The translations under genes were made by a program, and so were the position numbers. Under the pieces are notes generated by a model. That model had not been told where the DNA came from. It made no database searches and saw only the letters and a list, made by a program, of their open reading frames with translations. 28,794 nt of DNA from positions 1 to 28,794 of the IMG/VR virus record IMGVR_UViG_3300032898_000133; one strand, 5' to 3'. Positions 3,811-28,170 of the stretch are shown piece after piece (the stretch's first letter is position 1; each line of letters begins with the position of its first letter). Source of the DNA: a virus.

Positions 3811-3868
3811 AGATCTGGGAGCCGCCTGGGACATACTGCCCGTATCGCGCAAGGGGGGATGGCTTGTC

Positions 3869-4477: not shown

Positions 4478-4519
4478 CCGGACCGCACCCCGGCCGGGAA
4501 AACGGCTAGCGCGGGCGCG

Positions 4520-4532
4520 GACAATAGGGGGC
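4520..4532 (+). promoter_or_regulatory. Possible -10 element just before the nucleotidyltransferase start
   Basis: GACAAT at 4520-4525 resembles an actinobacterial -10 hexamer and ends seven bases before ATG 4533, which would give a leaderless or nearly leaderless transcript. No convincing -35 is seen. The G-run between hexamer and ATG could instead act as a weak ribosome binding site. This sits in one of the two real gaps in the operon, so an internal promoter is plausible. Confidence 0.4.
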
Positions 4533-5270
4533 ATGCAAGGAGCGGAAGCAGACGACGCTGAGGTGAAGCCGCCGCCGGATGTCCTGCTGTCGGGCATCGT
4601 GGGTTCGACCGCCTACGGGCTTGCGCACGAGGGGTCCGACATTGACCGGCTCGGGGTGTTTGCCGCTCCGACCAGCGCGTTCCACGGGCTGCACCTGCCC
4701 ATCGGGAAGGGCGCCACCTGGGTCAGCAGCAAGCCAGACGCGACCTTCCACGAGGCAGGGAAGCTGGCCGGGCTGTTGCTAAAGGCGAACCCGACCGTCA
4801 CGGAGCTTTTGTTCCTCGGGGACTGGGAAGTGATGACGCCGGAAGGCGAGGCGCTCATCGCGATCCGGAAGTCGTTCCTGTCGGCGAAGCCGGTCCGAGA
4901 CGCGCACCTCGGGTTCTGCACTCAGCAGTTCAAGCGGATCGAGAACCGGGGCGACGGCTCGTTCGCCGCCGACCTGAGGAAGCGAACCGCAAAGCACGCC
5001 CGGCATCTCTGGAGGCTGTGCCGCCAGTGCGTTCAGCTGTGGACCGAGGGGACGCTGACCGTCCGGCTAGACGAGGGCGCCGCAGCAGAGTGCCGGGAGT
5101 TCGGCGAGCGCGTTGAGCTTGGCTACCTCAGCCGGGCGACCGACCTGATCCGGGCGACCGAGGAACTACTCGACTCAACGCCCTGCGCGCTGCCCGGACG
5201 CCCGGACGAGGCTGCGGCCGAGGCATGGCTTCAGGACGTCCGCCGTGCCTACTGGACGGACCGCCCGTGA
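4533..5270 (+). CDS. Predicted nucleotidyltransferase, COG3541 (YcgL)-like
   Basis: The product has 245 residues from ATG 4533. The DNA polymerase beta superfamily signature is clear: LLSGIVGSTAYGLAHEG followed by SDIDRLGVF, giving the GS motif (Gly24, Ser25) and metal ligands Asp36 and Asp38. Further on, KLAGLLLKANPTVTELLFL matches the conserved helical block of the COG3541 group, in which NPT-x-x-ELL is typical. The C-terminal half is helical and charged. Members of this group are often encoded beside RNA-repair genes. Here the gene overlaps a CCA-adding-type enzyme by four bases, which supports RNA 3'-end or tRNA metabolism, although the actual substrate is unknown. Confidence 0.8.
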   Translation: MQGAEADDAEVKPPPDVLLSGIVGSTAYGLAHEGSDIDRLGVFAAPTSAFHGLHLPIGKGATWVSSKPDATFHEAGKLAGLLLKANPTVTELLFLGDWEVMTPEGEALIAIRKSFLSAKPVRDAHLGFCTQQFKRIENRGDGSFAADLRKRTAKHARHLWRLCRQCVQLWTEGTLTVRLDEGAAAECREFGERVELGYLSRATDLIRATEELLDSTPCALPGRPDEAAAEAWLQDVRRAYWTDRP

Positions 5271-7032: not shown

Positions 7033-7863
7033 CTAGAGGCCGTGGGATTCCAGCCACTGGGCGAGTTCCTCGTAGCCGTTCTCCACGGCCTGCGCGCCAT
7101 GGCGGATGAGGCCGGCGAGCTCGGCTAGGAGGCCCTCGGGAGCCGGGGAGGGAGCCGGGGGCGCGGGGGCCTTAAGCGGCTGCGGGGCGGTGCAGTCGCC
7201 GCCCTCGGACAGCAGCCGCTCCAGGGTGGCGAAGCTCATCCTGAAGGAGCCGCCCACCCCGTAGGAGGTGCCCCACGAGTTGTCGCAGCCGATCATCTGG
7301 GCTTCGGCGTCAAGGATGCGCGCCTCGTACTCGTGGCCGCCGCGGACGGTCGCGCCCTCGGCGATGGTCACGGTCCCGTCCCCGGCCGGGTCATCGAAGG
7401 ACGTGTACCAGTTGGAGCCGATCATTACCGGGCCGTCCATCAGCGCCTGGAGGGCGGAGTCCAGGTCGGTGTAGTGGCTGAAGCCCGAGATCAGCCCGTC
7501 ATCCTCGGCCGCCTTCGCCACTGAGGGGCCGGTGGAGCCGTTGTCGTTCGGCGGGTAGGGGCCGTCGCCGTCGATTATCTCGGCCTGCGAGTACAGGCGC
7601 AGCGCCGCGGCCTCGTCCAGCATCAGGCCCTTGGGGAGCGCCGCGAACAGGGGGGCAGTCCCGAGGGCGCCGGTCATCGCGTTGCCGGTGCAGCTCCCGA
7701 CATCACCCTGGTTCAGGATCGGTATGCTCCGCGGCCAGGTGACAGAGGCGACCGCCCTGCGGGCTCCTGGGTAGGGGCGGGCAAGCTGCCGGAGCCTCGC
7801 GTCGACATGCCGTCCCAGCCGCTTGCCGGGAACGACGATCTCCTCGATGCGCTGGATGGTCAA
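7033..7863 (-). CDS. Papain-like (C1 family) cysteine peptidase
   Basis: The start codon is TTG 7863, with GGAGG eight bases upstream. The product has 276 residues. Papain-family catalytic elements are in order: the oxyanion Gln52 and nucleophile Cys58 in NQGDVGSCTGNA, His177 in RGGHEYEA, and Asn195 with Trp197 in CDNSWGTSYG. There is no signal peptide or propeptide of the usual size. After the catalytic domain (ending about residue 225) come a Pro/Ala linker and a short acidic helix. It lies 19 bp downstream of the 671-aa tail protein, so it may be a virion-associated peptidase, a processing enzyme for tail proteins, or a host-directed protease. A role in peptidoglycan cross-bridge cleavage is less likely but not excluded. 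Confidence 0.85.
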   Translation of the reverse strand: MTIQRIEEIVVPGKRLGRHVDARLRQLARPYPGARRAVASVTWPRSIPILNQGDVGSCTGNAMTGALGTAPLFAALPKGLMLDEAAALRLYSQAEIIDGDGPYPPNDNGSTGPSVAKAAEDDGLISGFSHYTDLDSALQALMDGPVMIGSNWYTSFDDPAGDGTVTIAEGATVRGGHEYEARILDAEAQMIGCDNSWGTSYGVGGSFRMSFATLERLLSEGGDCTAPQPLKAPAPPAPSPAPEGLLAELAGLIRHGAQAVENGYEELAQWLESHGL

Positions 7864-10595: not shown

Positions 10596-11729
10596 CTAAG
10601 CGTTCGCGGCGAGGAGGCGCGTCGGCATTACCTCAGGCCGGAAAAAGTGGAAGCTTGCCAGCCGGACGATCCACGCCAGGAACTCGTCATACGGCATGTC
10701 GCTCTTGGAGTAGTTGCAGGTCTTGCAGCACGGGACGACGTTGCCCGGCTCGTAGCCCCGCGTGTTGTCCACGCGGTCAATCCCGTTGTAGACGAAGTCT
10801 CCGCTGTTCGGGCGCCCCCTGCGGATCGTGGCAGGCGCGACGCCGCAGTAATGGCAGTCGAGCGAGGTCAGCCGCCTGACGTCATCGTCGGTCAAGTTCC
10901 AGGAAAGGCCGCGCGATTCGGCGCCCGCCTGGTAGTTGCGCAAGACCGCCTTGAAGGCCGCCTCGCCCATGGCGTATCCCTTGTAGGGGCCGAACCTTGC
11001 GCAGCCGCAACTGCTGGCGCTTCCGTCGACAAGGTTCTTCCGGGGGGCCACTATCTCATTCCCGCAGTCGCACCTGCACAGCCAGCAACCTACGCGGCCT
11101 TCATTTGAGGGCTTGCTCCCAACCCACCGGATCGCGGTGAGCTTGCCGAAGCGCCGTCCGGCGTAGTCGGTGTACTTGATGCACTCCCTGCACGACTGGA
11201 CGCTCGGCGCCCGGAGCAGCACTACTAGCGAACGGGTGTACTCAGTGCCGCAGTCACAGAGCATGCGCGCCGCGCGGACGGCCGGCTTGCTCGGGCACTG
11301 GGTCACGACTTCCGGGTCAATGACGACGCTCTTGCCGATCCGCTGGCCCTCTTCGATGAACAGCCTGCGCAGCGACGGCTTAGGCCCTTCCGGCGCACGC
11401 TGGTGGCCCGCTACGAACCTCATCGGGGCGCCCTTGACGTAGCCACGCGCACGGCTGGTCATCGCCGCGATCGGCGCGGGCTGCCCGCACCCGCACTCGC
11501 ACAGCTTCACTCCTGCCGGCGCCTCGGCGAGATGGCGACCCTGGGCAAGCTGAGCAGCGTTGAGCTTGGCGAAGTGTCCCCGCACGAACCTCAGCGGCTG
11601 GCCTTTGGCCTGACCGCGAGCCGAGTTAGCGCTCTTCGCGATCGGTGCCGGCTGCCCGCATCCGCACTCGCAGAGCTTGATCTCGACCGGTGATCCCGCG
11701 TCAGCAGCGGCAGACGTACCCTGTTCCAT
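10596..11729 (-). CDS. HNH homing-type endonuclease with duplicated Cys-rich DNA-binding modules
   Basis: ATG 11729 follows AGGAG at good spacing. The product has 377 residues. Two copies of a 35-residue module (KLCECGCGQPAPIA ... ARGxxKGxPxRFVxGH) occupy residues 18-52 and 75-109. A CDCGTEYTR ... QSCREC region (157-183) follows, then a domain of the type GRRFGKLTAIRWVG ... CRCDCGNEIV ... LVDGSASSCGC (191-243) often found in phage homing endonucleases. The C-terminal nuclease (about 290-345) has CHYCG, YNGIDRVDN and NVVPCCKTCNYSK, a Cys-coordinated HNH variant in which ID stands near the usual first His. The enzyme likely cuts DNA at a specific site and copies its gene into that site. It is free-standing, not in an intron, and sits at the junction between the late genes and the opposite-strand small-gene cassette. 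Confidence 0.88.
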   Translation of the reverse strand: MEQGTSAAADAGSPVEIKLCECGCGQPAPIAKSANSARGQAKGQPLRFVRGHFAKLNAAQLAQGRHLAEAPAGVKLCECGCGQPAPIAAMTSRARGYVKGAPMRFVAGHQRAPEGPKPSLRRLFIEEGQRIGKSVVIDPEVVTQCPSKPAVRAARMLCDCGTEYTRSLVVLLRAPSVQSCRECIKYTDYAGRRFGKLTAIRWVGSKPSNEGRVGCWLCRCDCGNEIVAPRKNLVDGSASSCGCARFGPYKGYAMGEAAFKAVLRNYQAGAESRGLSWNLTDDDVRRLTSLDCHYCGVAPATIRRGRPNSGDFVYNGIDRVDNTRGYEPGNVVPCCKTCNYSKSDMPYDEFLAWIVRLASFHFFRPEVMPTRLLAANA

Positions 11730-13194: not shown

Positions 13195-13610
13195 CCGGCA
13201 TCCCAGTCAGGCGTTGCGTCGCCTCCGCCGGCGAAGACGCGCCCCGCGCGGCCGGCACCATGCCGGATCCCGAGCGGGTTACGCGGCTTGTCCCCGAACC
13301 TGGAATTAGCCTCCGCAGTTCGCTGAATCTGGAAGTCGACACGCAAGCCCGAGCGGTCGCTGAGGTACACGCCGATCGCCAGGCAGAGCAGTTCCCACCG
13401 TTCCCTGGTCGGGCACGCGGCGGCGAACTCGCTGTCGTCGAGCATGAGCCTGACGTCGACGTCGCGGTACTTCTCGGCCCCGCCGATGCCCGCGGTGCCC
13501 ACAAGGTAAGGGTGCTCGCCGCCGAATGCCCTGCTGACCACCTGGCATGCCTGGTCAAGGTGGTACAGCTCTGTCGTGGTCAGCAGGTCCGTGCGGGGCC
13601 TGGTGGTCAT
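13191..13610 (-). CDS. Small nucleotidyltransferase-fold protein
   Basis: ATG 13610 overlaps the upstream stop (ATGA). The 139 residues contain a minimal polymerase-beta-type signature: YLVGTAGIGG then KYRDVDVRLML, giving Gly38-Thr39 and Asp50/Asp52, and a third acid at Asp92 in LRVDFQIQ. The Ser of the usual GS motif is Thr here. The C-terminal tail, Gly/Arg-rich (GDKPRNPLGIRHGAG), resembles the substrate-proximal loop of small nucleotidyltransferases. Possible roles are nucleotide transfer to RNA, protein or a small molecule. It lies downstream of a C39-like peptidase in the lysis cassette. It is the third member of this superfamily in the window and not closely similar to the other two. 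Confidence 0.65.
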   Translation of the reverse strand: MTTRPRTDLLTTTELYHLDQACQVVSRAFGGEHPYLVGTAGIGGAEKYRDVDVRLMLDDSEFAAACPTRERWELLCLAIGVYLSDRSGLRVDFQIQRTAEANSRFGDKPRNPLGIRHGAGRAGRVFAGGGDATPDWDAG

Positions 13611-14164
13611 GCTGCCACCCCGGTGGCTGCGGGCATCTTGTACCAGCCCTCGATGAAGTGGCAGCCGAAGAACGGCCGCCCGTCCGGTGCCTTACCCGGC
13701 CAGTCCGGGCACCCGGCCTTGGATCCGGGGCCGAGGAACCACTCCCACGGCTCGGTGACGTGCCCGTAGATCGGGTCCATCAGCAGCACGCCCTCAGGAG
13801 AGTGCCCGAGGACCACGGCGGCATGTCCCATGCCCGCGATCCGGTTGAGCATCACCTGGGCGATCCACCCGGCATCAAGGTGGCGCTCCGTCCACTCGCG
13901 GCGGCGGGGGCCGAGCCAGAACGCGTTGCGGCCGTCCTGGTCGCCCTGGTCCTCTGCCAGCGTGAACCGGAGGTGCTCCGCGCCGAGGACCTCGCGGGCG
14001 TAGGCGACCTCGTGGAAGCGCGTCTCCGCACGCCACGCCTTCACCATCTCCGCAGTCACGTCCGGCCGGCCGAGGCAGCGGGCCACGTAGGCGGCCGAGT
14101 AGTAGCCGCAGTCCTTCTGCCGGTCCGGCTGGAGGTACGGCTCAGGGAATGCCCTAGGCGTCAA
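13607..14164 (-). CDS. C39-like (papain-fold) cysteine peptidase
   Basis: A TTG start at 14164 with GGAG six bases upstream overlaps the preceding gene by 11 bases; no better in-frame start is nearby. The 185 residues begin with QPDRQKDCGYYSAAYVARC, the Gln-x2-Cys pattern of C39-type peptidases (Gln16, Cys19). They continue to GHAAVVLGHS (His114) and LLMDPIYG (Asp130), giving a Cys/His/Asp triad at the expected spacing. There is no signal peptide. Relatives cleave leader peptides or cross-bridge peptides. In this cassette, downstream of a GH25-like endolysin, it could be a second lytic activity or a host-protein protease. Confidence 0.7.
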   Translation of the reverse strand: MTPRAFPEPYLQPDRQKDCGYYSAAYVARCLGRPDVTAEMVKAWRAETRFHEVAYAREVLGAEHLRFTLAEDQGDQDGRNAFWLGPRRREWTERHLDAGWIAQVMLNRIAGMGHAAVVLGHSPEGVLLMDPIYGHVTEPWEWFLGPGSKAGCPDWPGKAPDGRPFFGCHFIEGWYKMPAATGVAA

Positions 14165-14501
14165 CGAGCGCTCCGTCTCTTATCCACCCGTGCCAGTACG
14201 ATCCCTCGCGGACGGGCTGCCCGTCCCGCATGACCCAGCACTCGGCATCAACCGAGGGGCTGACGGTGATCAGCGGCGGCGTCCCGCTAACAGCCCACAT
14301 CTCATGGGGCGCGCTCGAGGCCCGGTCGGTGGTGCGCCAGGAGACCTCCGAGCAGTAGCCGGGTCCTTGCGGCTTCGTGTTCGGCAGCACGATCCACCAG
14401 CACTCACGGCCGCCCTCGTCGCCGGACGGGTCGCGCCACATCATGCCCGGCTCCCGCTCGCCAGCGGGTGGCTTGTCAACGATCCGCAGCGGGACGCTCA
14501 T
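14154..14501 (-). CDS. 115-aa protein of unknown function
   Basis: ATG 14501 overlaps the endolysin stop by one base (TGATG). The product has 115 residues, rich in Trp and Gly, soluble, with a predicted beta character (GMMWRDPSG, CWWIVLPN, EMWAVSGTPP, CWVMRDGQ). No family is recognised. Its tight coupling to the endolysin upstream and the C39-like peptidase downstream suggests a role in the same stage of infection. Confidence 0.6.
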   Translation of the reverse strand: MSVPLRIVDKPPAGEREPGMMWRDPSGDEGGRECWWIVLPNTKPQGPGYCSEVSWRTTDRASSAPHEMWAVSGTPPLITVSPSVDAECWVMRDGQPVREGSYWHGWIRDGALVDA

Positions 14502-15295
14502 CAGGCCTCAAGCTGCTTCCAGGCACTCCACGGGTCCCCGCCCGCCTGGACCCGCCAGCAGTACGGCCCTGGCCGGCCGAGCTTCACGTTCTCCGCGTGG
14601 CCGCCCTCGACTACCGCCATCGCCACGACCTTTCCCGGTCGTGAGGCAGTGCCGTGGGCGACCTGGTAACGGTAGTGGGTGGCAGTCCGGACGAGGCCCC
14701 AGGCGAGGTCGGCGGTCACATCGGGCGTCCCCGACAAGCCGCCCGGTACCGGCCCGGCCGGCGGAAGGATATGGGGGGCGGTGTCCCAGAACGGCAGGCT
14801 CGCCTCGGCGAGGTCCTCGTCGTAGCCGGAGAAGCTGACCCACTGCGTCATCACGTCGCCGGCCGCGATGTGCGGGACGCTCGTCCACTGGGCACCCCAG
14901 TACAGGCCATCCGGGTTGTCATTGCCCAGGACCGTAGACTGCGACCCGTACACGATCAGCGGGTACCCGGCGGCCCTCAGCCCGTCGTACACGACCCGGA
15001 TGTAGGCCGCGTCTGCGGCCATCTCAACGTCCCAGGCGACCAGCGTGCCCTTCGGCGCACCGATCGCGCGCAGCGCCGCGACCGCCGCGGCGACATCGGC
15101 CGCCGCACCCGGCCCCGGCGGCTGGGACCGCACGAACACCGGCAGCCGGTAGCGGGCATGCTGCGCGCCGATCTCGCCTGTTGTCCAGGCGTGCAGCTGG
15201 TCACCGCCGGGCAGGTAGATGACCACCCCGTCTGAGGGCGGCGGGCTGGCCAGCGGGTAAGCGGCGTCCCAGAAGCTCAGCGTCCCGGTCGTCAT
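14501..15295 (-). CDS. Endolysin, GH25/DUF1906-like glycoside hydrolase
   Basis: ATG 15295 overlaps the potassium channel stop (ATGA). The product has 264 residues. The N-terminal 170 residues resemble a TIM-barrel glycoside hydrolase: an early Asp in FWDAAYP (Asp10), VVIYLPGGD, then the D-x-E motif VAWDVEMA (Asp89, Glu91), YDGLRAAGYPLIVYGSQ and LYWGAQWT. Those features fit the GH25 lysozyme and Rv2525c/DUF1906 group. The C-terminal 75 residues (TADLAWGLVRTATHYRYQV ... YCWRVQAGG) look like a fibronectin-III-type or wall-binding module. There is no signal peptide, so export would depend on a holin-like partner; several membrane proteins lie just upstream in the operon. Muralytic activity is inferred from fold and context. 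Confidence 0.75.
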   Translation of the reverse strand: MTTGTLSFWDAAYPLASPPPSDGVVIYLPGGDQLHAWTTGEIGAQHARYRLPVFVRSQPPGPGAAADVAAAVAALRAIGAPKGTLVAWDVEMAADAAYIRVVYDGLRAAGYPLIVYGSQSTVLGNDNPDGLYWGAQWTSVPHIAAGDVMTQWVSFSGYDEDLAEASLPFWDTAPHILPPAGPVPGGLSGTPDVTADLAWGLVRTATHYRYQVAHGTASRPGKVVAMAVVEGGHAENVKLGRPGPYCWRVQAGGDPWSAWKQLEA

Positions 15296-15627
15296 GATGT
15301 CGGGTCCTTCCCGGGGTCGGTCACGCGGTTGGGGTCAGCGGCTAGCGCCCGGTCAACGTGCTCTCGCACGTGCCGGTGTACGTGCATCGCGGTCAGGGAC
15401 GCGAACGTCGCGCCGAGAAGCGGGATAGCGGTCATCATCTCCGTGACCGCCACGACGTGCGCGGCCCCGGTCCTGGGCACGAGGTCGCCGTAGCCAACGG
15501 TGGTCGCCGTGCTGGCCGACCAGTACAGGGCCAGCCAGAACGAGACATGGTCCGCGATCGCGAACGCGACCGCCCCGCCGAGCACCGACGCCACCGCCAG
15601 CCCGGCGAGGATCAGGGTCCGCCGCAC
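15292..15627 (-). CDS. Two-TM potassium channel (KcsA-like pore module)
   Basis: GTG 15627 lies four bases after the previous stop. The product has 111 residues. The architecture is TM1 (about 3-25), pore helix in FWLALYWSASTAT, selectivity filter TVGYGD at residues 43-48, then TM2 (about 55-80) and a short His/Arg-rich cytoplasmic tail. The block STATTVGYGDLVP matches the canonical K+ filter and the residues that follow it in bacterial channels. At 111 residues it is smaller than KcsA (about 160) but has every element of a minimal pore and should form a tetramer. Its stop overlaps the endolysin start (ATGA), so the two are translationally coupled. That suggests a part in lysis, for example dissipating or setting membrane potential, though a role in infection physiology or exclusion cannot be ruled out. 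Confidence 0.9.
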   Translation of the reverse strand: MRRTLILAGLAVASVLGGAVAFAIADHVSFWLALYWSASTATTVGYGDLVPRTGAAHVVAVTEMMTAIPLLGATFASLTAMHVHRHVREHVDRALAADPNRVTDPGKDPTS

Positions 15628-15630
15628 CGG

Positions 15631-15930
15631 CTATTGCCTGTTCGCGATGGCGGCATGGTGGGCGGCGTGGAGGTCCTCGACGGTGCGCCTCGGGTGCGGA
15701 TGGTGACGCCAGCAGGCCCGCTCCCCGGCCGCCGTGGTCCGCCGCGCGTACCAGTAGCAGCGGTGCACCCCGCACTGGTTGTGCCACCAGAAGCCGCCGA
15801 GCCAGACGCCCATCCCGACGAGGAACGACCCGGCTATCCCCGACCAGAAGTTGTAAAACCCGAAGCGCCCGTAGGGCAGCCCGTAGTCGCATCCGGTGAC
15901 GTGGACCAGCCAGTGCCAGAGGGGGATCAC
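15631..15930 (-). CDS. 99-aa membrane protein with Cys/His-rich C-terminal tail
   Basis: GTG 15930 starts directly after the stop of the VIT-like gene (no gap). The 99 residues start with a Trp/His-rich amphipathic segment, then a hydrophobic helix at about 30-48 (SGIAGSFLVGMGVWLGGFW), then HNQCGVHRCYW ... ERACWRHHPHPRR, a cluster of Cys and His that could bind metal on the inner face. I recall similar proteins near lysis genes in actinophages, usually unannotated or called membrane proteins. It could be a holin or a regulator of the channel encoded next. No firm family is given. Confidence 0.7.
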   Translation of the reverse strand: MIPLWHWLVHVTGCDYGLPYGRFGFYNFWSGIAGSFLVGMGVWLGGFWWHNQCGVHRCYWYARRTTAAGERACWRHHPHPRRTVEDLHAAHHAAIANRQ

Positions 15931-16362
15931 CTAGAGCCACAGCCCGATCAGGCCGCAGGCCACGCCGGTCACCGCCAGCAGCGCGTACGTCTCGACAGCG
16001 GCCAGCACGCCCCGTTCCGGACGTAGCCAGCTGATGACCCCGCCCACTGCGACGGCCAGGGTCAGCGAGAAGCCCAGCGCCCATGGCCCCCGCCACGCCG
16101 AGTACGGGATCGCCGGGACGACGCACCCGGCGAGCGACGCGCCGCCGATGACCAGGGCCGCGAGCACTCCCGACTGCTTGTCGCTCACCCGCTGCGCGTT
16201 GGCCATGTTGATGAACTCCGCGACCCCCCCGGACACTGCTGCCGCCCAGACCGCCGACGGCGGCTGGTGGCTGACGATCAAGCCCGCGACGATGCCGAGG
16301 AACAGGCCGAGGCCGTCCACGGAACCGAACACGGCCTCCTTGCGAAACGGCGAGAGGTTCAC
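15931..16362 (-). CDS. VIT1/CCC1-like multi-pass membrane protein lacking the metal-binding domain
   Basis: GTG 16362 overlaps the upstream stop (GTGA). The 143 residues form about five hydrophobic helices. The start [17 protein letters not shown] resembles the first helix of VIT1/CCC1 iron/manganese transporters (DG near the start, Gly-rich helix). The second helix ends with [19 protein letters not shown], in the place where family members have a Glu/Met-containing metal pathway. Known transporters of this family have a cytosolic metal-binding domain between helices 2 and 3; here the loop is only a few residues, so it is either a stripped-down transporter or a membrane protein repurposed in lysis. 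Remote similarity only; an unrelated holin-like protein is the alternative. Confidence 0.6.
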
Positions 16363-16892
16363 TTCGCGGCTGCCGTGAGCATGTGCTCGTGGATCAGGTC
16401 GATCCGCGCCCGTGCCTCGGCCGCCACATGCGGGTCACGGATCACGGTCAGCTGGTTGTCCTGCAGGGCCTCTCCAGACTGTGACCAGTTCGTCGAGCCG
16501 GTCACCACGTCCAGGCCGTCGACCACGAGGAGCTTCATGTGCATGATCGCCCCATGCTCGCTCCGGCCGGCGACGACTGAGTTGGACGGGTAGGCCATCT
16601 TGGCGAGCAGCGCCCGCTCGTGAACGCCGCCAGCCTGGGAGGAGTCCAGCGTCATCGAGACATAGCAGTTCTCGTCATCGAGCTTCTCGTGGAGAGCTGC
16701 GGCGAGCTCGTCATCATCGAACCCGTACATGGCGAGCACTAGCGACCGGGTTGCCGACCCGATGAGGTCCGCAAGGACAGCGTGAACCTGGTCTACCGGC
16801 GAGTAGAACGTCAGCGGCGAGGCCGGGTAGCCGGCGGGGAATGAGCCGCCGAGCTTGTGCTTCACGAGCACCGACAGGTCAGGGAGTGCCAT
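16359..16892 (-). CDS. Phospholipase D superfamily protein with single HKD motif
   Basis: The start is ATG 16892, since GGAGG is placed well before it and it overlaps the upstream stop by one base (TGATG); an upstream in-frame extension has no such support. The 177 residues contain HMKLLVVD followed by GSTNWS: His118, Lys120 and Asp125 of the HKD motif and the conserved GS/N at 132-135. An upstream helix-strand pattern, [19 protein letters not shown], is typical of the family. A single HKD copy is the arrangement of Nuc-type endonucleases, which dimerise to form one active site. It may therefore cut nucleic acid (host DNA degradation) or act on membrane phospholipid. There is no signal peptide. 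Placement among membrane and lysis proteins makes the lipid option worth considering. Confidence 0.82.
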
Positions 16893-17446
16893 CAGGAGCC
16901 TCCGATCTTCACGCATGCGCTGATGGACAGGACGGTGACCGCGACAGTGCACTGAGGCGGCGAAGACGAGGACGGCGGCGGCGATGACGGGTGGACCGGG
17001 GGCGACGCAGGTGGCGTGGCCGGCGGGGCGCCCGAGGACGCTGGCGGGGACGATGAGGGCGACGGCTGAGGCGGGGAAGAGGCCGGTGGCGGCGAGTGCC
17101 CCGCCGGGGACTGGCCGGAGCCACTGCCTGTCCTCGTCGCGGGCGAGGACGGCCGGCCGCTGGCGAGATCGGCGGCGAGGACAGGCCCGCTTGCCGGCAC
17201 CCCGCCAGGGTGCGGAGCGGACCGGGATGGCCGGGCGGACGGGGACCTGCCGGGCGATCGCCGCACGGAGGGCCGCGGCGCTGAAGGGCCCGGGGCTGGC
17301 GGTGATGCCGCTACCGGTGGCGGCCCGGATGGCGGGGCTACACCGGGGTGGCCTGCCAGGCTGTTGACGGCCAGGGTCGCCCCGACCGCGATCGACAGGG
17401 CCAGCCCTGAGGGGACGGCCTTCGCCGCAAGCTCGCGCGCCTGCAT
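16892..17446 (-). CDS. Membrane-anchored Pro/Ser-rich extracellular protein
   Basis: ATG 17446 follows GGAGG eight bases upstream. The 184 residues start with a basic N-terminus and one hydrophobic segment at about 10-32 ([19 protein letters not shown]), without an obvious cleavage site or lipobox. Then come about 130 residues of Pro/Ser/Ala low-complexity sequence, and a C-terminal [19 protein letters not shown] segment with two Cys. The design suggests an extended stalk reaching into the thick cell wall, anchored in the membrane, with a small structured tip. It could act in lysis or in superinfection exclusion. No homologue is recognised; low-complexity regions prevent confident family assignment. 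Confidence 0.7.
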
Positions 17447-17880: not shown

Positions 17881-18459
17881 CTAGTTCGACTCCCAGCTGA
17901 CATCCATCACCGACTGGTAGCTGGTGGCGACGGACGTCGGCTCGCTGCCGGACGACGATGAGAAGACGGCGGCGGCCTGGACGTAATCAGCGCCGCCCAG
18001 CATGTACACCCAGGCTGACCCGCCGACGATCTCCGGGGCGGACGAGGGCCGCAGCATCGTCTCCACGGCGTACTGGGTGGTCCCGGTCACGACGATGACC
18101 GGCCGCAGGACAGCATCCGAGGGGACGGTGCCAAGCGAGACGGCGACGTAGACGTGGTACCAGCCTGAGCATCCCGCTGGCGGCTGCCATGACCAGGCTG
18201 CCTGGGTGGACGTCGCTGATGCGCTCCACCCTGAGTACGGGTCCTCATCGACAGTGTCGAACTGGATGACGGTGGCCGATGAGGTGCTGAGCGTCTGGGC
18301 GCTGCTCGCCTGCCGGAGCCGCGCCAGGATCCCCGTCGCCGTGAACAGGATGGGATTGGTGATCAGCTGGTTGAGGTCGGCGGACAGCTGGCTGCCGTGC
18401 GGGTACAGCCCGGCGGGGATGACCGGGCCGCCGGCCGGAGGCGGGAGCAGGGTACTCAT
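17881..18459 (-). CDS. 192-aa tail/appendage protein, C1q-like fold
   Basis: ATG 18459 overlaps the upstream stop (ATGA). The 192 residues start with a Pro-rich linker, then SADLNQLITNPILFTATGILARLRQ, then a Ser/Thr-rich domain with YSGWSASATSTQAAW and GCSGWYHVYVAVSL. The order of elements matches both halves of the 384-aa protein encoded upstream, so the three modules appear related and of the beta jelly-roll (C1q/TNF-like) sort common in actinophage minor tail proteins. It is probably a trimeric receptor-binding or baseplate component. Confidence 0.65.
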   Translation of the reverse strand: MSTLLPPPAGGPVIPAGLYPHGSQLSADLNQLITNPILFTATGILARLRQASSAQTLSTSSATVIQFDTVDEDPYSGWSASATSTQAAWSWQPPAGCSGWYHVYVAVSLGTVPSDAVLRPVIVVTGTTQYAVETMLRPSSAPEIVGGSAWVYMLGGADYVQAAAVFSSSSGSEPTSVATSYQSVMDVSWESN

Positions 18460-19610
18460 GCTCCCCGCCAGACGACGATCAGCTTCGAGTGGGTGCTGGA
18501 GCTGTTCGTCAGGCTTACCGTGGACCCGGAGTTCTGGTTGCAGGTGACCTCAACGTACTGGCCGGCGGTCACCCGCAGGTACCGCTCGCAGGTCAAGGAC
18601 AGGCCCGCCGTTGACGTGCTCGCCGCAGCCGCCCGTGACCCGACCCAGGTGGTGGACCCGCTGACCCGCAGGGACGCCTGGTACGTGCCGGTGCTGCCGG
18701 CGAGGAACGAGACCTGCCCGTAGACGTAGTAGCGGCCTGCCCGGGGAAACGTGTACCGGGACGGGTTGCTGCCGGAGGACCAGCCCGAGTAGTTGTCCGA
18801 GTTGGTGCCATTGACCGTCGCGGTGGTCATGGTGATCGCGGTGTCGGCGCCGCCGGAGGGGATCGTCTGCGTGGTGCCGGCGTTGGACAGGCGGGCCATC
18901 GGCGGGAAAGCCAGGAAGTTGACGGTGTCCCGGAGGTTGCTGTTGAGGAACGCGCCGGTGATCTCCGTGGTGTCGGCGAATGCCGCCGGGGACGGGACGG
19001 GCAGCCCTGCCGTGCCGCCCAGGACGCCCACCCACCGGGCGGCCAGCCAGGGGAACGCCCCGGCGGCCTGGGAGGTGGTCAGGGTGACCGCGCTTCCGGT
19101 GTCCTGAAAGCCCAGCATCTGGACGAAGTCAGCGTTGACGACGGGCACGGCGGTACTGGCCGGCAGCATCTCCGCGAACGACGGGATCACCACGGCGGAC
19201 GCGGACGACGGCCCGGCATGCTGGCCGCCCATGTAGTTGGTGCTGACCCCGCCCTGCTTGGCCGCCAGCCCCGCCCCGAACGAGTACTGGCTGTTGGTGG
19301 TCGCCGCGCCGAACGGGACCGCGCCGCGGAACAGCCACCAGCCGCTCGTGGGAATGTAGTACCGGAACGAGTTCGTCGAGTCGCTGTGGCCGCCGCCGGT
19401 GTCGAGGAACTCGGTGTCGAGGGGCTGCACCGTGTCGCCGATGCCGGAGGGGAACGACTGGGCGGTCACCAGCTGGGCGAGGATCGCCATCGGCGGGCTC
19501 GTGATCAGCCACAGGGGCGCGGTCACGTTCGCCCTCAGCAGCGCCGACGTGATCGGCTCTGAGACGGTGGTGGACCAGGTCCGCTGTGAGACGCCCGTCG
19601 GGTACTGCAC
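18456..19610 (-). CDS. 384-aa minor tail protein with two C1q-like modules
   Basis: GTG 19610 is the first usable start: a TGA in this frame lies at 19614-19616. The 384 residues contain two similar halves. The first starts TSALLRANVTAPLWLI-x2-PPMAILAQ and has FLDTGGGHSDSTNSFRY and SGWWLFRGAVPF. The second starts TGAFLNSNLRDTVNFLAFPP and has SDNYSGWSSGSNPSRYTF and AGRYYVYGQVSFLAG. Each half is a short helical segment followed by a beta-rich domain, as in C1q-like minor tail proteins. The 5' 482 bases are also covered by the 3' end of the upstream large ORF in another frame; the 384-aa frame is the convincing one here. Confidence 0.75.
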   Translation of the reverse strand: MQYPTGVSQRTWSTTVSEPITSALLRANVTAPLWLITSPPMAILAQLVTAQSFPSGIGDTVQPLDTEFLDTGGGHSDSTNSFRYYIPTSGWWLFRGAVPFGAATTNSQYSFGAGLAAKQGGVSTNYMGGQHAGPSSASAVVIPSFAEMLPASTAVPVVNADFVQMLGFQDTGSAVTLTTSQAAGAFPWLAARWVGVLGGTAGLPVPSPAAFADTTEITGAFLNSNLRDTVNFLAFPPMARLSNAGTTQTIPSGGADTAITMTTATVNGTNSDNYSGWSSGSNPSRYTFPRAGRYYVYGQVSFLAGSTGTYQASLRVSGSTTWVGSRAAAASTSTAGLSLTCERYLRVTAGQYVEVTCNQNSGSTVSLTNSSSTHSKLIVVWRGA

Positions 19611-22600
19611 CAGTCACCGCCCCGGGTAAGAAAGCGATCGCGTTCTCCCCGGTGGGGAGGCCCCTGACCGGGTCGTTCGTGGCCAGCGCGCCGAGGAGGT
19701 AGGGGGTGGCCATGTACGTCACCTGCCACTGTCCCGGTGCCAGGGCGGGGGTGACGGACTGGATGACGAAGGGGTCCTGGATGACCGTCTGGGTGCCCTG
19801 GAGCCTGCGGGAGACCTGGACGACCGTGCCGACGTCGGCGGTCAGGACGAACTGCCAGGCCCAGGGGTTGGCCTTGGCGTCCACGGTGAACTGGGCGATC
19901 CGCAGCTCGGGCTGACCGTACTGGGCGAGGATCCAGTCGGACAGGTCCGTGACCGTGTCCGGGTCGATCAGGTAGACGGTCTCCTGCAAGGTCTGGTCGC
20001 CGTACTGGGTCATCGACGTCGGGGAGCTGACCGCGACCGCGACCCCGGAGTACTCCGTGATCGTCAGGTCATTAAACACCTGGCTGGGATCAAAGTCTGG
20101 CGAGAAGTCGGCCCCGTAGGGGATCTCGCCGGGCGTCCACAGCTGGGCGAGGTCGGCGTACAGCAGCACCGACGATCCGGGGGTGCCGGCCAGCTGGACG
20201 GTCAGGCTGACCCAGGCGGTGCTGCCCGGGGCGATGCCGCTGGCCGTGCACGATACCCAGGCGGTTCCCGGGTTCAGCGGCACCGCGCCGGTCGCCGTCG
20301 CGAGTGGGCTGCCTGTCACTGAGTAGAAGGTCAGGACCGTGACCGCGCCTGATGCCCACCCGCCCGGGCACAGCAGCATCACGGTCCCGGACACCTCGGA
20401 CCCGGGCGCCAGGGCGCACTTCTCGCTGACCGCCCCCGGGGTGGCCACGCCGCCGGGCGGGGTGATGAGCAGCGACTGGGCACCGGACCATGACTGCGCC
20501 GCCGACGCGGTGACCGTGGCACCGCCGGCCGCCGTCCAGGGGCTGATCCCGGCCTCGAAGTCCCAGTTCGCGTTCAGGTATGCGCCGGCCTGCTCGCCGA
20601 CATCCCAGGCGATGCCCCGGTTCCAGCGGTACTCGCGGGAGTCGAACGCCAGGTACCCGGCCCGGTCCACGGACAGCAGCCCCGTGTCGGACTGGGCGAT
20701 CTTCGTGATGTTCTGGGCGACGGCCTGCCCCTGGATGTCGGTCGCCGGCTCGAGGCTGTCGCTGGCGACCGACAGCCTGCGGGGCACGAGCATCGACGCG
20801 TAGGACATGAGGCGGCCGATCCTGTTGTGGGCAGCATCGCCCGCCAGGCCGTTCTGGTAGGAGAAGAAGTGCGCGACCATCCGGGTCTGGGTGAGGACCG
20901 AGGGGAAGACTGCCAGCCCTGCGAGGCTGAGGTTCGATGACTGGCCGGTCAGGATCCGGTCGGCCGCGCCGCCCCAGGTGACCCACTGGAACGACGGGGC
21001 CAGGTTGCAGGTGCCGCTCGCGGTGGTGAGGGCGATGCCGCCCGCCTCGAGCCACGCCGTCCATGCGGCCGGGGTGAGGGTGATCGTCCAGGCGTACCAG
21101 GTGCCGAGCGAGATCCCGCCGATGCCGCTCTCGATCCCGACCGTGCTCAGGTGGTAGGAGGTGCCAGCGCGGGTGCCCTTGTCGTAGACGGTGAGGTACC
21201 AGCCGATCCCGGCGCCGCTGCCGTCGTAGTCGCCCCAGAACTCGGCGATCGTCCCCGCGGTGCCCTGCAGCGCCCAGATGAGGAGCCTGCCGTTCGGCTG
21301 GGCGACCGCGGCGAACTGGACAAGGCACTCGATGGTGATCCCGCCGGTGATCGACGGGGCGGAGGTGGTGGCCGTGGACTGGAGGCAGTAGCCGTGCTGG
21401 ATGTCCGTGGAGCCGGTGTTCAGGCCGGACTGCGTCCAGCAGCCGGCCGCGGCGCCGAGCAGCACGGAGGTGTCCCCGCCGAACGCCTGCGCGCCGCTGG
21501 GGCCGGGGCCGAACTTGGACTGTACGACGGTGAGGGCGCTGGCCCCCCCGCCCGGGGCGAGGTTCGCCGCCATCGTGGACCCGGCCGGGTCCGAGCAGGG
21601 CCAGTAGCCCCATGGGTCATCGAGGAGGATCTCCCCGGCCGCGACCGTGGGCTGCAGGCTCGTCAGGCCGGCGTACACGTCGGTCGCCGTGGTGTTCGCG
21701 CTGGTGTAGCGGGACGAGGACAGCTGGGACGGCCAGCGCTCGATGTAGCCGCGCCATGCGACGTAGGTGCGGCCCTGCCAGGTGGCCAGCAGCCGCGCGG
21801 GGGTGAACACGTCCGGGCCGGTGGCGAAGACGGTGTTGGCGTTCAGCACCGAGCCGTTGGGGGCGGTGAGCTGGCAGGCGTCCCACCAGAACAGGGTGGT
21901 GGATGCCGGAGTGCCGTTGGCGACCAGCAGCACCGTGGCGAACGCGGCGGTGGAGGGGCTGGTGCCGGACGCCTGAGGGTAGGCCCACTGGCCTGCTGTC
22001 ACCGCGATGTTGGTGCCGCTGGAGTCGCTGACGTGCCCGCCGGAGGCGTTGTACCACCTGATGGTGGCGGCGACCGAGTTCCACCCGGCGGGGCAGTACA
22101 CCGCGGCGTAGGCCTGGTAGCCGGCGGTGGAGGAGGTGACCGGGTACTGAGCTGACTCGATGTACGGCCCGGACGTCACCCCGTCCGGCCCCATCAGCAT
22201 CGACGTGGCCCCGGTCCACGCGTACTGCCGGGACAGGGCCACGGTCACGTTGTTGCGGGCGTTCCACCCGGAGGTCCCCAGGTAGTAGGCGGAGGCCGTG
22301 TTCCCGGGTGTCAGGGCACCGTCATTGTTGCTGAGCATCAGCGACATGGACGACGCCTGGACGCTGTCCAGCTCGTACTGCTTGCCCCGCTGCCCGGACA
22401 GGCCCCGGTACCTGGCGGTCAGGTCCGTCCAGCTGAGCTGATCCCAGGGCGTCGCCATGCCGCTGCCGAACGCCGCCTCGAACCTGACGTGCGGCCAGCC
22501 CTGCGACGGGCCCGCCGGGGCCGGCTGGGTGACCAGCACGGCCATGCCGCACGCGCCGAAGTCGGGGCTGGCCCCTGTTGCCGTCCAGGTCGCTGAGACG

Positions 22601-23231: not shown

Positions 23232-26200
23232 CTACCTGCCGGCCGCGAGCGCCAGGCCGTTACTCGGGTTACGGTGGTTGAAGCGCAGCGCCTCGGTCTG
23301 GACGACCCGGTAGATCTCGGTGGCGAGCTCCTGGTTGTTCCCGACGTAGCCGTCGACGTGGACGTTGATCGTCATCGTGCCTCCGCCGGCCCCGGCTCCC
23401 GCGGCGAGGCCCCCCGAGTACGGGGCGTACGCGGCGGCGGACAGGCCCTTGGCCGAGGTGCCGACGCGGGGGATGCCGTCCTCGATGCCGAGCGCGTAGC
23501 CGAGGGCGGTCATCAGCCCGTGCTCACGGAACACCTGCGAGGGGCTGCTGATCTTCAGCTCGCGCTTCATCGTGTTCACGGCGGCCTCGGCGAGCCGCTG
23601 CATCATCAGGACGATCGACTCCTGCTGGGACCGCAGGCCACTCATGAAGCCCTTGCCCGCCTGGGCGCCGGAGTCGTACATGGCGTCGGCCGCCGTGTAG
23701 CCGAGGCTGGTCGACGCGGAGGCGATCTGCCCCTCGGCCGTGTTGATGGACCGGATGTCTGACCATGACCCGGCGGCGAGCTCGGCGGCGATCTGCCCGC
23801 CCTGCACCGGGCCGGCCTGGATGAGCTGGTCAATGTAGGCCTTGTTCAGGCCCATCCTGGCGAGCTTGCCGATGTTGTTCTTGAACGCGACGATCTGGTC
23901 GACGTCCATGTGGAGGCTGCTGGCGATGTCCCCGGCGGTCAGCGGGGTCGACCCGCCCGCGCTCACGATCCCGAACGCCTGCTCGGTGTTGCTCGTCGTC
24001 GTCGCCGCATAGGACCTCGCCGCGGCGATGGTCTTCGCGATCGACGCCCGCTGGTTGGCCAGGGCCTGGAGCCGCCAGTTGTCCTGCTGCAGGTAGCTGG
24101 CCAGCCCGGATGCGCGTCCCTGGCTGATCAGCCCCGCGTTCAGCTCCGACTGGACGGCAGACATCATCTTGGTGATCGTCGAGCTCACCTGCGAGGCGGT
24201 GCCCTCCAGGCCGCCGACCAGGTTCGTGGAGAACAGGAGGCTGGTGTTCTGGGCGGTCTTCAGGGCTGCCGCGTAGGCGGACTGGGAGGAGTAGGTGATG
24301 CCGTCGGCCAGGCCCTGCCCTGTCATCACCCCGAGGTTGTAGGTGACCTTGGACGGGGAGCTGATCTGGAGCCGGTCCTTGACCGCCTGCTCGGCGAGGT
24401 CGCCTAGCTGGGTCACGACGGCCCGCAGCTCGTCCTCCACGGACATCATGCCCGTGGCGAGCCCGCGGGTGGCCTCCGCGCCAGCGGCACGGAGGGCGGC
24501 TCCCATCGCGTTGACCGAGGCGATCACCTGCGGTGCCGCCGACGTGATGCCCTGGGCGACGCCGAGGACGACGTTCTGCCCGTGCCCGTACATCACCCGT
24601 GACGGGGAGAGGATGTGCAGGACCCCGGCGAACGTGCTGCTGATGTCGTGGCCGATGCCGCCCACGTAGCTGAGCAGCCCGCCGACCGCGCTGCGGATGC
24701 CGGACAGCAGCCCGCCGATGATGTCCCTGCCCATGCTGATCATGGACCCGACCAGGCCGGACAGGGCTGACATGGCCTGCCCGGGGATCCGCGCGAACAC
24801 GCCGATGACGGACGACAGGTAGGAGCGGACGGCATTGAGGAAGCCCCTGAGGCCGCTCTCCACCGCGTTGAACGCCTGCCCGGCGAAGGACCGGATCGCG
24901 TTCCAGACCTGGCCGAACGTCTTCTGCACGTCCTGCCAGGCCTTGGACCAGTGCCCGGTGACCAGGTCGAGGAACACGCTGAAGATCCCGACGAGGAGGT
25001 CCCAGCCGATCTTCACGGTCGCGGCGATGAGGTCCCAGGTGACCCGGATCACGGTTGAGATGGCGGCCCATGCGACCCGGACCACGAGGAGGATCGCGGC
25101 CCAGGTGACATCCCAGATGTCTGAGATGATCATCAGGTCGGCCCGGACGACGGCGGCGATCACGCCCATGACCCCGGACACGACGCCCCAGATGATGTCC
25201 CACGCGCCGCGGGTGATCCCGTAGACCAGGTTCCACGTGGCGGCGAGGTACCGGCCGAGGGCCTCCGCGACGACCATGACGTAGCGGACCTGCACCATGG
25301 TGACGGTGGAGATGACGTCCCAGATGGCGCGCCAGACCTCGGTGATCTCGCCGCCGTAGGACTGCCACCAGGCGGTCAGGTCGTGCCACATGGCCAGGAA
25401 CGGGGCGGCGATCGCGTGCGCGGCGGCCTCGGCGTCGTGCGCGACGGTCTTCCAGTGCTCGGCGAGGAACACGACCAGGGCGCCGACCGGGCCGAGGAGC
25501 AGGCCGCCGAGGATGATGGCCAGCATCTGCCAGTGGCCTCGCACGAAGCTGACCAGGCCGCTGACGCCATCCTCGATCGGGCGGAGGACGTCGCTGTCGA
25601 GGAAGTGCCAGGCGTCGATCGCCGCGGCCTTGATGTCCCGCCACGCGGCGGCGAAGAAGTGCCCGAAGTCGGCCACGACGTCACGGACAATCTTGAAGTG
25701 CTCGTAGAGCTCGTACAGGCCGGCCGCGAGGGCGATGACGGCGATCAGGACGAGCATCACCGGGTCGGCGGCGGTCACGGCCTCGAAGATCTTCTCGGCA
25801 GTCGCGACTACCTTGAACGCGGCGGCGACCGCGAGGATCGCCCCGGCGAACGCGGCCAGTACCGGGTCCTTCTCGAAGAAGACGAAGACCCTGGCCAGCG
25901 CCCCGACCACCGAGGTCGCTGCGGGCAGCAGGACCGACCCGAAGGAGATCGCCAGGGACTGGGCACCGCTGACGAGGTCGTGCCACTGCTGCGACATCGT
26001 CTTGGTCCGCGCATTCCAGTCGGACGCGAACGAGTCAGCGCCTTCCTTTACCTGCGCGTACTTTCCCTGGAACCGGTCGAATTCCCCGACCAGGACGCCG
26101 ATCCCGCTTCCCGCTTTTTTACCGAAAACGTCGGTCAGGATCTCGCCGTAATCCTTGGCGGGCACCTTCGCGGCCTGCAGGTGCTGGATGAACATCTCCA

Positions 26201-27359
26201 GCGCGCCATTCAGGCCGCCGGTCTTCATGCGGTCAGCCAGCGACGTCGTCGTAAGGCCGAGCATTTTCAGCGTCGAGCCTGCGGTGGAGACCGGGGCAAC
26301 GATTGCCTGGACGGCCATCCGCAGGTCAGTGCCAGCCTTGGCGCCCCTGATATTGTTGTCACCATAGGTTGCCAGGGCCGCTGAGACATCCTGCAGGGTG
26401 ACGCCGTACATTTTTATATTCGCCAGGACGCCGGTTCCGAATGCCTCGGCAAGGTCCTGCATCTGCATGTCCCCGGCGCCGACTGTGGCATTCATGTAAC
26501 CCATTGCCTGGGTGTAGTTCTGAACGCCTGGAATTCCCGACGCAATAGCCGCGCCAAGGGCATTGGTGACGTCTACGAGGTTGGCGTTTCCGACCTGCGC
26601 GCCCATCGCTGCGACCTTTACCGCGTCGAGCATCTGCGTTCCAGTGGCGCCTGTGCTCGCCATGTTCGATGCGACGTGGTACAGGCTTTCGGCGAGGCTG
26701 TCCGGTCCCTCTCCGACCTGCCCGGACAGCTCGAGCACGCCCTGGGACAGGCCCTTGATCTGGGACTGGGCCACGCCGGCCTGGGTGTGGAGCTGCTCCA
26801 TGCTGCTCTGGAAGCCGGCGGCCTTGTCGATGCCGTAGGCGGCGGCGAGCCCGATGCCGAGGAAGGCGGTCTTCATGACCGTGCCGAAGCCGATGCTGGC
26901 GTCCTTGGCCGCGGCGGTCTTGCCCGCGTAGGACTCGGTGGCGACCCCGGCCCGCTCCGCGGCCTCGGTCTCCAGGTCCAGTCCGGCGGCGGCGATGTCC
27001 TCCGATGAGGCGAACTGGCCGTTCATCAGCCGGAGGCGGCCCTTGGCGTCGATCATCAGGCCGGCGGCCTCAAGGTCCCGCTCGAACGCGGCTACCTCAG
27101 CGTCCAGGCCGCCTACCACGGCATCGGATGAGGCGCCCAGCTGGCCACCCGCGGCAGCTGCCCGGTCGAACGACGCGGCCATCTCGTCCATGCCGGCCGC
27201 GGTCGCGTCGAACTCCGCGCCCATCCGCGCCGCCGAGGCTGTCGCCGCGTCGATCCCTGCGGCGAAGTCGTCGGTCTGGCCGAGCATGTCGCCGATGCCC
27301 GCGAGGTACTCCCCGGCCTGTATGCCGAACGTCTGGATCGCGGGGGGAAGGAGGCTCAA
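23232..27359 (-). CDS. Tape measure protein (TP901 family)
   Basis: TTG 27359 begins a 1375-residue protein. The N-terminal 180 residues are Ala-rich coiled coil. The TP901 core lies at about 190-450 (FQSSMEQLHTQAGV, DVTNALGAAI, DLAEAFGTGV, YGDNNIRGAKAGTDLRMAVQ, ILTDVFGKKAGSG). Next are long hydrophobic and Trp-rich helices (about 480-880), and a C-terminal part with three copies of the SPS-x-V motif (SPSRVMYGHG, SPSKVTYNLG, SPSQVFREHG). Tape measure proteins set tail length at about 0.15 nm per residue, so a tail of about 200 nm is expected, that is a long-tailed siphovirus. The start is unusual: a TTG just behind a hairpin that masks the ribosome binding site. Confidence 0.93.
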   Translation of the reverse strand: MSLLPPAIQTFGIQAGEYLAGIGDMLGQTDDFAAGIDAATASAARMGAEFDATAAGMDEMAASFDRAAAAGGQLGASSDAVVGGLDAEVAAFERDLEAAGLMIDAKGRLRLMNGQFASSEDIAAAGLDLETEAAERAGVATESYAGKTAAAKDASIGFGTVMKTAFLGIGLAAAYGIDKAAGFQSSMEQLHTQAGVAQSQIKGLSQGVLELSGQVGEGPDSLAESLYHVASNMASTGATGTQMLDAVKVAAMGAQVGNANLVDVTNALGAAIASGIPGVQNYTQAMGYMNATVGAGDMQMQDLAEAFGTGVLANIKMYGVTLQDVSAALATYGDNNIRGAKAGTDLRMAVQAIVAPVSTAGSTLKMLGLTTTSLADRMKTGGLNGALEMFIQHLQAAKVPAKDYGEILTDVFGKKAGSGIGVLVGEFDRFQGKYAQVKEGADSFASDWNARTKTMSQQWHDLVSGAQSLAISFGSVLLPAATSVVGALARVFVFFEKDPVLAAFAGAILAVAAAFKVVATAEKIFEAVTAADPVMLVLIAVIALAAGLYELYEHFKIVRDVVADFGHFFAAAWRDIKAAAIDAWHFLDSDVLRPIEDGVSGLVSFVRGHWQMLAIILGGLLLGPVGALVVFLAEHWKTVAHDAEAAAHAIAAPFLAMWHDLTAWWQSYGGEITEVWRAIWDVISTVTMVQVRYVMVVAEALGRYLAATWNLVYGITRGAWDIIWGVVSGVMGVIAAVVRADLMIISDIWDVTWAAILLVVRVAWAAISTVIRVTWDLIAATVKIGWDLLVGIFSVFLDLVTGHWSKAWQDVQKTFGQVWNAIRSFAGQAFNAVESGLRGFLNAVRSYLSSVIGVFARIPGQAMSALSGLVGSMISMGRDIIGGLLSGIRSAVGGLLSYVGGIGHDISSTFAGVLHILSPSRVMYGHGQNVVLGVAQGITSAAPQVIASVNAMGAALRAAGAEATRGLATGMMSVEDELRAVVTQLGDLAEQAVKDRLQISSPSKVTYNLGVMTGQGLADGITYSSQSAYAAALKTAQNTSLLFSTNLVGGLEGTASQVSSTITKMMSAVQSELNAGLISQGRASGLASYLQQDNWRLQALANQRASIAKTIAAARSYAATTTSNTEQAFGIVSAGGSTPLTAGDIASSLHMDVDQIVAFKNNIGKLARMGLNKAYIDQLIQAGPVQGGQIAAELAAGSWSDIRSINTAEGQIASASTSLGYTAADAMYDSGAQAGKGFMSGLRSQQESIVLMMQRLAEAAVNTMKRELKISSPSQVFREHGLMTALGYALGIEDGIPRVGTSAKGLSAAAYAPYSGGLAAGAGAGGGTMTINVHVDGYVGNNQELATEIYRVVQTEALRFNHRNPSNGLALAAGR

Positions 27360-27400: not shown

Positions 27401-27892
27401 TCAGATGCCCATGGCGTCCATCCACGCGGCGACGGACACCCGGGTGGCGATGCCAGAGGAGATCAGCAGCTCGGTCGATGGCGCCAGCCACGGCCTGCGG
27501 GGAATGGTGACCTGCCGCCCGAAGAACCCAACTTCCGGGTTCCCTAGCTGGGGGAAGTTCCTGGCGTGGATGGTGACAGGGCCGAACTCGTGGACCCGGC
27601 CGTAGATGAGCACCGACCCGACCGTGCACAGGGCATACCCCTCATCGATGAGCCGTGACGGCGTCCGCCTGACAGACCGGCGCAGCGTGCCGGTGACCAG
27701 GCTGGGAGGCTGGCCCGGCCGGGACGGCGTCGGCTCACTGGCGGCGTGCGTCGATGAGGTGAGCTTGACCTTGACGGCGGTCTCGGCGGCCTGCCCGAGC
27801 GCCTGGCATGCCGCGAGGGGCGCGCTTGTGGCGGCCCGCTGCTGCAGCAGGCGAAGCTGCGCGGCGACGTCCCGGGCGGCGTTGGCGCTCAC
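27401..27892 (-). CDS. HK97-gp10-like / virion morphogenesis protein
   Basis: GTG 27892 has AGGAG seven bases upstream and overlaps the chaperone stop (GTGA). The product has 163 residues. Features include a helical N-terminus (ARDVAAQLRLLQQRA), the TGTLRRSV motif, then YGRVHEFG, a GFFGRQVTIPRRPWL segment and a helical C-terminus. The order LRRS ... HEFG ... IP-x-RPWL is characteristic of HK97 gp10-like tail-completion proteins and of Mu gpG-like morphogenesis proteins. Those are usually encoded before the major tail protein; here it sits between the chaperone and the tape measure, a less common place. The longer frame beginning at 28015 is out-of-frame reading of the chaperone. Confidence 0.7.
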   Translation of the reverse strand: MSANAARDVAAQLRLLQQRAATSAPLAACQALGQAAETAVKVKLTSSTHAASEPTPSRPGQPPSLVTGTLRRSVRRTPSRLIDEGYALCTVGSVLIYGRVHEFGPVTIHARNFPQLGNPEVGFFGRQVTIPRRPWLAPSTELLISSGIATRVSVAAWMDAMGI

Positions 27893-28170
27893 CGGCCGCT
27901 CCTGTTCCGCGCGGCGTCGCGCTCGGCCCGCTCGGCCATGCACCGGCGCTTGATCATCAGCAGATCCCAGCAGAACCTCTGAACGTAGGCGGGGGTTTCC
28001 TGCATCTCCCGCCACGACCAGGCGAGGCTCTCGCCGCCCATCAGCTCGAAGTCCCGGACCTCGGGGGGAATCGCGGGCTGCTGCCAGGTGCCGTCGTAGA
28101 TGCTCTCGGCGGGGGCTAGGACGTCCTCGAAGTACCAGCCTCCTGGGGCGCGGTCGGCCTCTGAGGGTTT
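27889..28170 (-). CDS. Tail assembly chaperone, -1 frame extension (G-T type)
   Basis: This frame has no suitable start codon near its beginning but an intact, protein-like sequence: GGWYFEDVLAPAESIYDGTW, then PPEVRDFELMGGESLAWSW, and so on to RDAARNRSGR and TGA at 27889-27891. It overlaps the first chaperone frame in the -1 phase, the classic arrangement in which ribosomes slip back to make a fused chaperone. The exact slip site is unclear; GGGCAAAC (28174-28167) and GGTAAAC just upstream are possible but not canonical heptamers. The coordinates start at the first codon after the candidate slip and are approximate. An internal ATG (in ELMGG) could only give a truncated product. Confidence 0.75.
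   Translation of the reverse strand, partial: KPSEADRAPGGWYFEDVLAPAESIYDGTWQQPAIPPEVRDFELMGGESLAWSWREMQETPAYVQRFCWDLLMIKRRCMAERAERDAARNRSGR

Follow-up and report, generated by a model that had tools for sequence, protein, structure and literature searches.

A KcsA-type potassium channel and its constant small membrane neighbor in a tailed-phage late operon

What might a tailed phage gain from a potassium channel encoded among its late genes? The question is raised by a DNA of 28,794 bases, here called the window, which constitutes an entire IMG/VR virus record (IMGVR_UViG_3300032898_000133) of an uncultivated soil phage and is possibly a genome fragment. An earlier note on this DNA had described a 111-residue, two-TM K+ channel with the filter sequence TVGYGD at residues 43-48, and had taken its late-operon position and its coupling to an endolysin gene to suggest its use. 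The features discussed below are collected in Table 1.

Table 1. Position, strand and supporting evidence for the late-operon features of the window
Feature	Position	Strand	Evidence
Neck / tail completion protein	27401..28015	-	PHROG 26, E 1e-9
Tape measure protein	23232..27359	-	PHROG tape measure, E 3e-53; marks the operon as that of a tailed phage
PLD-like protein, same operon	16359..16952	-	Pfam PLDc_2, E 2.9e-14
VIT1-like membrane protein, 143 aa, abuts CHT	15931..16362	-	Pfam VIT1, E 2e-5, below cut-off
CHT, one predicted TM, C...C...C-x2-HH tail	15631..15930	-	Family HMM, conserved Cys/His columns, AF2
Two-TM K+ channel, 111 aa, GTG start	15292..15627	-	Ion_trans_2, AF2, KcsA fold match
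Selectivity filter TVGYGD, residues 43-48	15484..15501	-	Sequence
Glycoside-hydrolase-like protein, probable endolysin	14501..15295	-	Weak Rv2525c_GlyHyd-like and PHROG endolysin matches

The open reading frame, AF2 and Pfam all bear out the channel as first described, with the addition that it is read from the minus strand, beginning with GTG at position 15627; a plus-strand reading of 15292-15627 is ruled out by stop codons. The Ion_trans_2 search proposed in the note gave 52.3 bits against a curated cut-off of 22.5 (E 5.4e-14), and PHROG 14690 was matched with an E value of 1.8e-13. AF2 modeled the monomer with a pLDDT of 88.8 and helices at residues 2-26, 30-42 (the pore helix) and 54-97, so that sequence and model together place TVGYGD after the pore helix and between two TM helices, which is the layout of a K+ channel. 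Foldseek returned KcsA as the top fold match, the lowest rmsd values (1.6-1.7) belonging to open-state KcsA structures, including the non-inactivating E71A mutant (1.6), and a profile built on the channel family picks up KcsA among other K+ channels of known structure. The Pfam profile and the fold match rule out a chance occurrence of the motif. The window channel is a genuine KcsA-type pore, which most likely assembles into a K+-selective tetramer.

On the minus strand, the late operon leads from the neck gene through tape measure, tail-region, PLD-like, VIT1-like, CHT and channel genes to the glycoside hydrolase (GH)-like gene. The presence of tape measure and neck genes in this operon and on the same strand rules out host contamination of the channel region and confirms the viral origin and late-operon position that had been proposed. 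No promoter or terminator match was found around the operon; few are expected by chance in GC-rich DNA. The 1361-residue frame at 19129-23214 overlaps the next one (18456-19610) by 482 nt; its end resembles a wrong frame, and a frameshift, real or due to sequencing, is likely near 19600. Elsewhere in the window, 10596-11729 encodes an HNH/endonuclease VII-like protein with duplicated N-terminal Cys-rich CECGCGQPAP repeats, and two late-region genes (7033-7863 and 13607-14164) read as papain/C39-type cysteine peptidases, with no Pfam match. Positions 5-6631 hold cellular-looking genes on the plus strand, among them a glycosyltransferase 2, a CCA-adding/poly(A)-polymerase-like enzyme with an HD domain and, by reading, a GH26-like lipoprotein; this region may be phage cargo or host flank.

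The reported overlap of the channel stop codon with the start of the downstream gene is exact (4 nt, ATGA), and the identity of that gene as an endolysin is probable, its own sequence giving weak matches. The protein scores 21.3 bits against Pfam Rv2525c_GlyHyd-like, under the cut-off of 27.2, and matches the PHROG 291 endolysins with an E value of 1e-3; no homologue was detectable in the deposited phage collection, and a scan for the GH family recovered three loci only, two of them without a channel. Its homologues in L092 and L120 carry C-terminal PG_binding_1 domains that score above cut-off, making an endolysin role likely, and we regard the protein as a probable divergent endolysin on grounds of sequence. 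Four-nucleotide overlaps occur at 5 of the 16 junctions of the window's gene string, and the overlap of channel and GH-like genes is therefore ordinary packing.

Scans of 2.9 million viral contigs, with duplicates collapsed by sequence, yielded 17 distinct phage loci of the channel subfamily, namely the window and L002, L005, L007, L008, L009, L011, L012, L013, L015, L016, L017, L044, L088, L092, L126 and L139; matches outside the subfamily were either distant channels of the 2-TM kind or longer Firmicutes-type prophage channels. An endolysin-type gene lies immediately downstream of the channel in three of the 17: the window, L092, where it belongs to the same GH family (48% identity), and L011, where it is a GH25 lysozyme (E 9e-23). 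The other 14 have none in this place. Neighbors elsewhere include the tail terminator (L005, L012), a head-tail adaptor (L005, L013), terminase (L009, L044, L139) and portal (L009), the context of the remaining loci being judged by reading. Because these neighbors differ, the position of the channel is variable within the late region. The survey rules out endolysin coupling as a conserved feature: the arrangement that the note proposed to look for in other phages, a channel beside an endolysin, is present in the window, L092 and L011 and absent from the rest, and lysis coupling, given also the frequency of 4-nt overlaps in the window, is not supported as the defining feature.

What the comparison singles out is the pairing with CHT rather than lysis, in which the channel may still have a part. 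This small membrane protein is encoded directly 5′ of the channel at 17/17 phage loci, with a 3-nt gap in the window and, across the junctions, either a gap of +3 or an overlap of 1-44 nt, mostly 4. Features shared in the alignment are a TM helix, a motif resembling Y-x-F/W-x-SG and a tail of Cys and His residues (C...C...C-x2-H). The CHT HMM was built from channel-adjacent proteins, and its matches to these are by construction; the CHTs of L088, L092, L126 and L139, which lay outside the earlier alignment, were recognized by reading and that of L015 was identified by eye. An apparent frameshift interrupts the CHT of L009 between its Cys pairs. The AF2 model (pLDDT 81.6) contains a single TM helix at residues 32-50, together with a hairpin and a helix at the C-terminus. 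The charges suggest an N-out/C-in topology, and the Cys/His tail is possibly cytosolic and, from its residue pattern, metal-binding. No relative of CHT was found in Pfam, PHROGs, PDB or BFVD, tblastn with four different members of the family gave no match in 50,697 deposited phages, and HMM searches did not place CHT beside other sampled phage K+ channels.

A more typical CHT profile recovered 60 viral contigs, 58 of them with an HMM match; the channel is present on only one, which is again the contig of L009. On the CHT-only contigs the neighbors are, by reading, connector, tail, packaging or lysis-like genes. Since dozens of CHT contigs have no channel, CHT is a family of broader occurrence among uncultivated and probably actinobacterial phages and is not obligately a channel subunit. 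Within L156-L215 the family has the form YGFWSGFGSDLGE...HNCHxxxCWRxGxH...CxxHHP. At L193 (2664-3662) CHT is followed directly by a member of the GH family of the window's probable endolysin, with no channel, and at L184 (1979-2464), as in the window (15931-16362), a half-length VIT1-like membrane protein lies upstream of CHT.

The pair also occurs on bacterial chromosomes. A motif scan of the genomes of 84,980 species revealed one such channel, in a Frankiaceae MAG, with CHT upstream; searching 395 genomes of the same class with a CHT profile added a second genome (G110), which was found by CHT alone and in which the channel proved to be adjacent. Both genomes share pirin, FAD-linked oxidase, dehydrogenase, UDG-like, CrcB-like and MFS genes as neighbors, named by reading rather than by HMM. 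Because these common neighbors are not phage genes, the locus looks like chromosome and not prophage, which further weakens the case for lysis coupling. Other actinobacterial genomes carry CHT without the channel. In one of these chromosomal settings (L152, 4013-5905) the CHT gene immediately precedes that of a His-rich CDF-type cation exporter and lies near Zn-uptake-ABC-like genes, labels that were read by eye. The window copy is the most divergent of the channel family, on a long branch; the backbone of the tree is unresolved and the direction of phage-host transfer is therefore not claimed.

The filter TVGYGD is intact in 17 of 19 aligned members, that is, in 15 phage loci (the window included) and the two chromosomal copies. 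The exceptions are L092, which reads TSGNSP, and L139, which reads TVG-C-D and has a shortened C-terminus. They are sisters in the tree (78% support), are not near the window, and retain CHT and open channel frames despite the loss of the filter, from which we conclude that K+ selectivity is dispensable in this branch. The equivalent of KcsA E71 is S, T, A, V or G across the family, never Glu, and Pro69 of the inner helix is invariant. Nei-Gojobori dN/dS ratios of 0.15-0.45 in four phage or bacterial pairs argue that the channel gene is maintained and point clearly to purifying selection in several relatives; the value for the window and L002 (0.53) is less reliable, dS being about 1.0.

The reading that we prefer, at a probability of roughly 0.5, is that CHT and the channel form a two-gene module which supplies a K+-leak channel and clamps the host membrane potential late in infection. 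CHT would be translated directly ahead of a minimal KcsA-type channel, whose tetramer, upon expression of the late operon, would let K+ leak selectively across the host plasma membrane and shift its potential toward the equilibrium value for K+. The constant and mostly overlapping gene order suggests that CHT assembles with the channel or gates it. The lack of Glu at the E71 position, the invariant Pro and the fit to open-state and E71A KcsA structures together suggest a standing, weakly inactivating leak. With its variable late-operon positions the module looks like cargo carried by the phages; in the few phages in which it lies beside an endolysin it may tune lysis. As to its purpose, we give about equal weight to exclusion of other phages, lysis timing and ion balance.

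Each of these purposes can be developed into an explanation of its own. Were the two proteins the holin-like pair of a lysis cassette, with a two-TM N-in/C-in channel and a one-TM N-out/C-in CHT, channel opening would shift the membrane potential and trigger or time lysis by the overlapping endolysin. This explanation gains from the overlap of the channel with a probable endolysin gene in both the window and L092, and with a GH25 lysozyme gene in L011, from the L193 arrangement, in which a gene of that GH family as in the window comes straight after CHT, and from the lysis neighbor that L092 retains after loss of the filter, but most channel loci have no adjoining endolysin-type gene, several being located by terminase or connector genes, and the chromosomal copies are accompanied by no lysis genes. 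Furthermore, holins are triggered by depolarization, whereas a K+ leak alone should tend to hyperpolarize the cell. The predicted topologies do match those of mycobacteriophage lysis-cassette pairs (PMC13056207), and on balance we consider a holin pair unlikely. A more elaborate version, in which a K+-selective pore gated by its Cys/His partner served as a holin-like lysis clock in some soil actinophages and one branch later lost the filter, strikes us as distinctly improbable.

The variable late position and the chromosomal copies are what one would expect of a cargo gene, and this is congruent with superinfection exclusion or host takeover, in which a K+ conductance would alter potential or turgor and block DNA injection by a second phage. 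By analogy, depolarization linked to Kcv is reported to keep a second virus from infecting (PMC7354518), and a different channel lies near the repressor in the temperate phage JNU_P5. Late expression is, however, atypical of exclusion genes, and there is no virus membrane bearing the channel as there is in chloroviruses; we rate this explanation as rather unlikely. Much the same doubt attaches to a host-derived cargo for cation homeostasis, in which VIT1-like protein, CHT and channel would set the concentrations of metals and K+ in the infected cell and would serve neither lysis nor exclusion in particular. It draws on the VIT1-like gene directly upstream of CHT in 5/17 channel loci and in six CHT-only loci, homologues of the window protein being found upstream of CHT in L002, L005, L007 and L111, on the chromosomal CHT beside the CDF-type exporter and Zn-uptake-like genes, and on the existence of the chromosomal pair. 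Against this, VIT is absent from most channel loci, the exporter and uptake genes were labeled by eye, and the VIT1 matches fall below the Pfam cut-off, that of the window reaching 24.8 bits against 28.1 over the N-terminal 50 residues only. Lastly, the destroyed filters of L092 and L139 could signify a decaying, non-conducting relic in which the pore fold persists and K+ conduction is gone. The perfect filter of the window and of nearly all aligned members, dN/dS well below 1 in four pairs and the sister relationship of the two losses, away from the window, make this very improbable.

The channel subfamily, with its constant partner CHT, its chromosomal copies and its filter-loss variants, constitutes a testable system for the use of host membrane potential by phages. 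The CHT family, which occurs on dozens of contigs from uncultivated phages and in neither the deposited phages nor the family libraries, is itself unexplored.

Potassium channel genes in tailed phages are not new. Greiner et al. 2018 (PMC6163359) catalogued such genes from Myrna, Phabba, BillNye, vibriophages and PLE and term any suggested function speculative; our literature search found no functional study of a tailed-phage K+ channel. The new elements here are a subfamily with a constant partner, a chromosomal counterpart and filter-less variants. The channels of Myrna, Phabba and BillNye (PHROG 14690) are likewise 2-TM K+ channels of tailed phages; unlike that of the window, those of Phabba, Muntaha and JNU_P5 lie among nucleotide/NAD-metabolism, tRNA or repressor genes and without CHT. 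Chlorovirus Kcv is also a minimal viral K+ channel, but it belongs to a eukaryotic virus, resides in the internal membrane of the virion and acts at entry (PMC7354518), whereas the window channel is a late gene of a tailed phage. In the lysis cassettes of mycobacteriophages a 2-TMD N-in-C-in protein is commonly accompanied by a 1-TMD N-out-C-in protein (PMC13056207), and the holin-like pair LysF1a/LysF1b resembles channel and CHT in topology; the paper mentions no potassium channel, and channel and CHT usually lie outside a lysis cassette. The closest parallel is KcsA, the pH-gated 2-TM channel of Streptomyces lividans, which shares with the window channel the order M1, pore helix, filter and M2, the TVGYGD sequence and about 33% identity over the aligned part. 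The window channel differs from it in having Ser at the E71 position, an inner-helix proline that is invariant in its family, an upstream partner protein and a place in a phage late operon.
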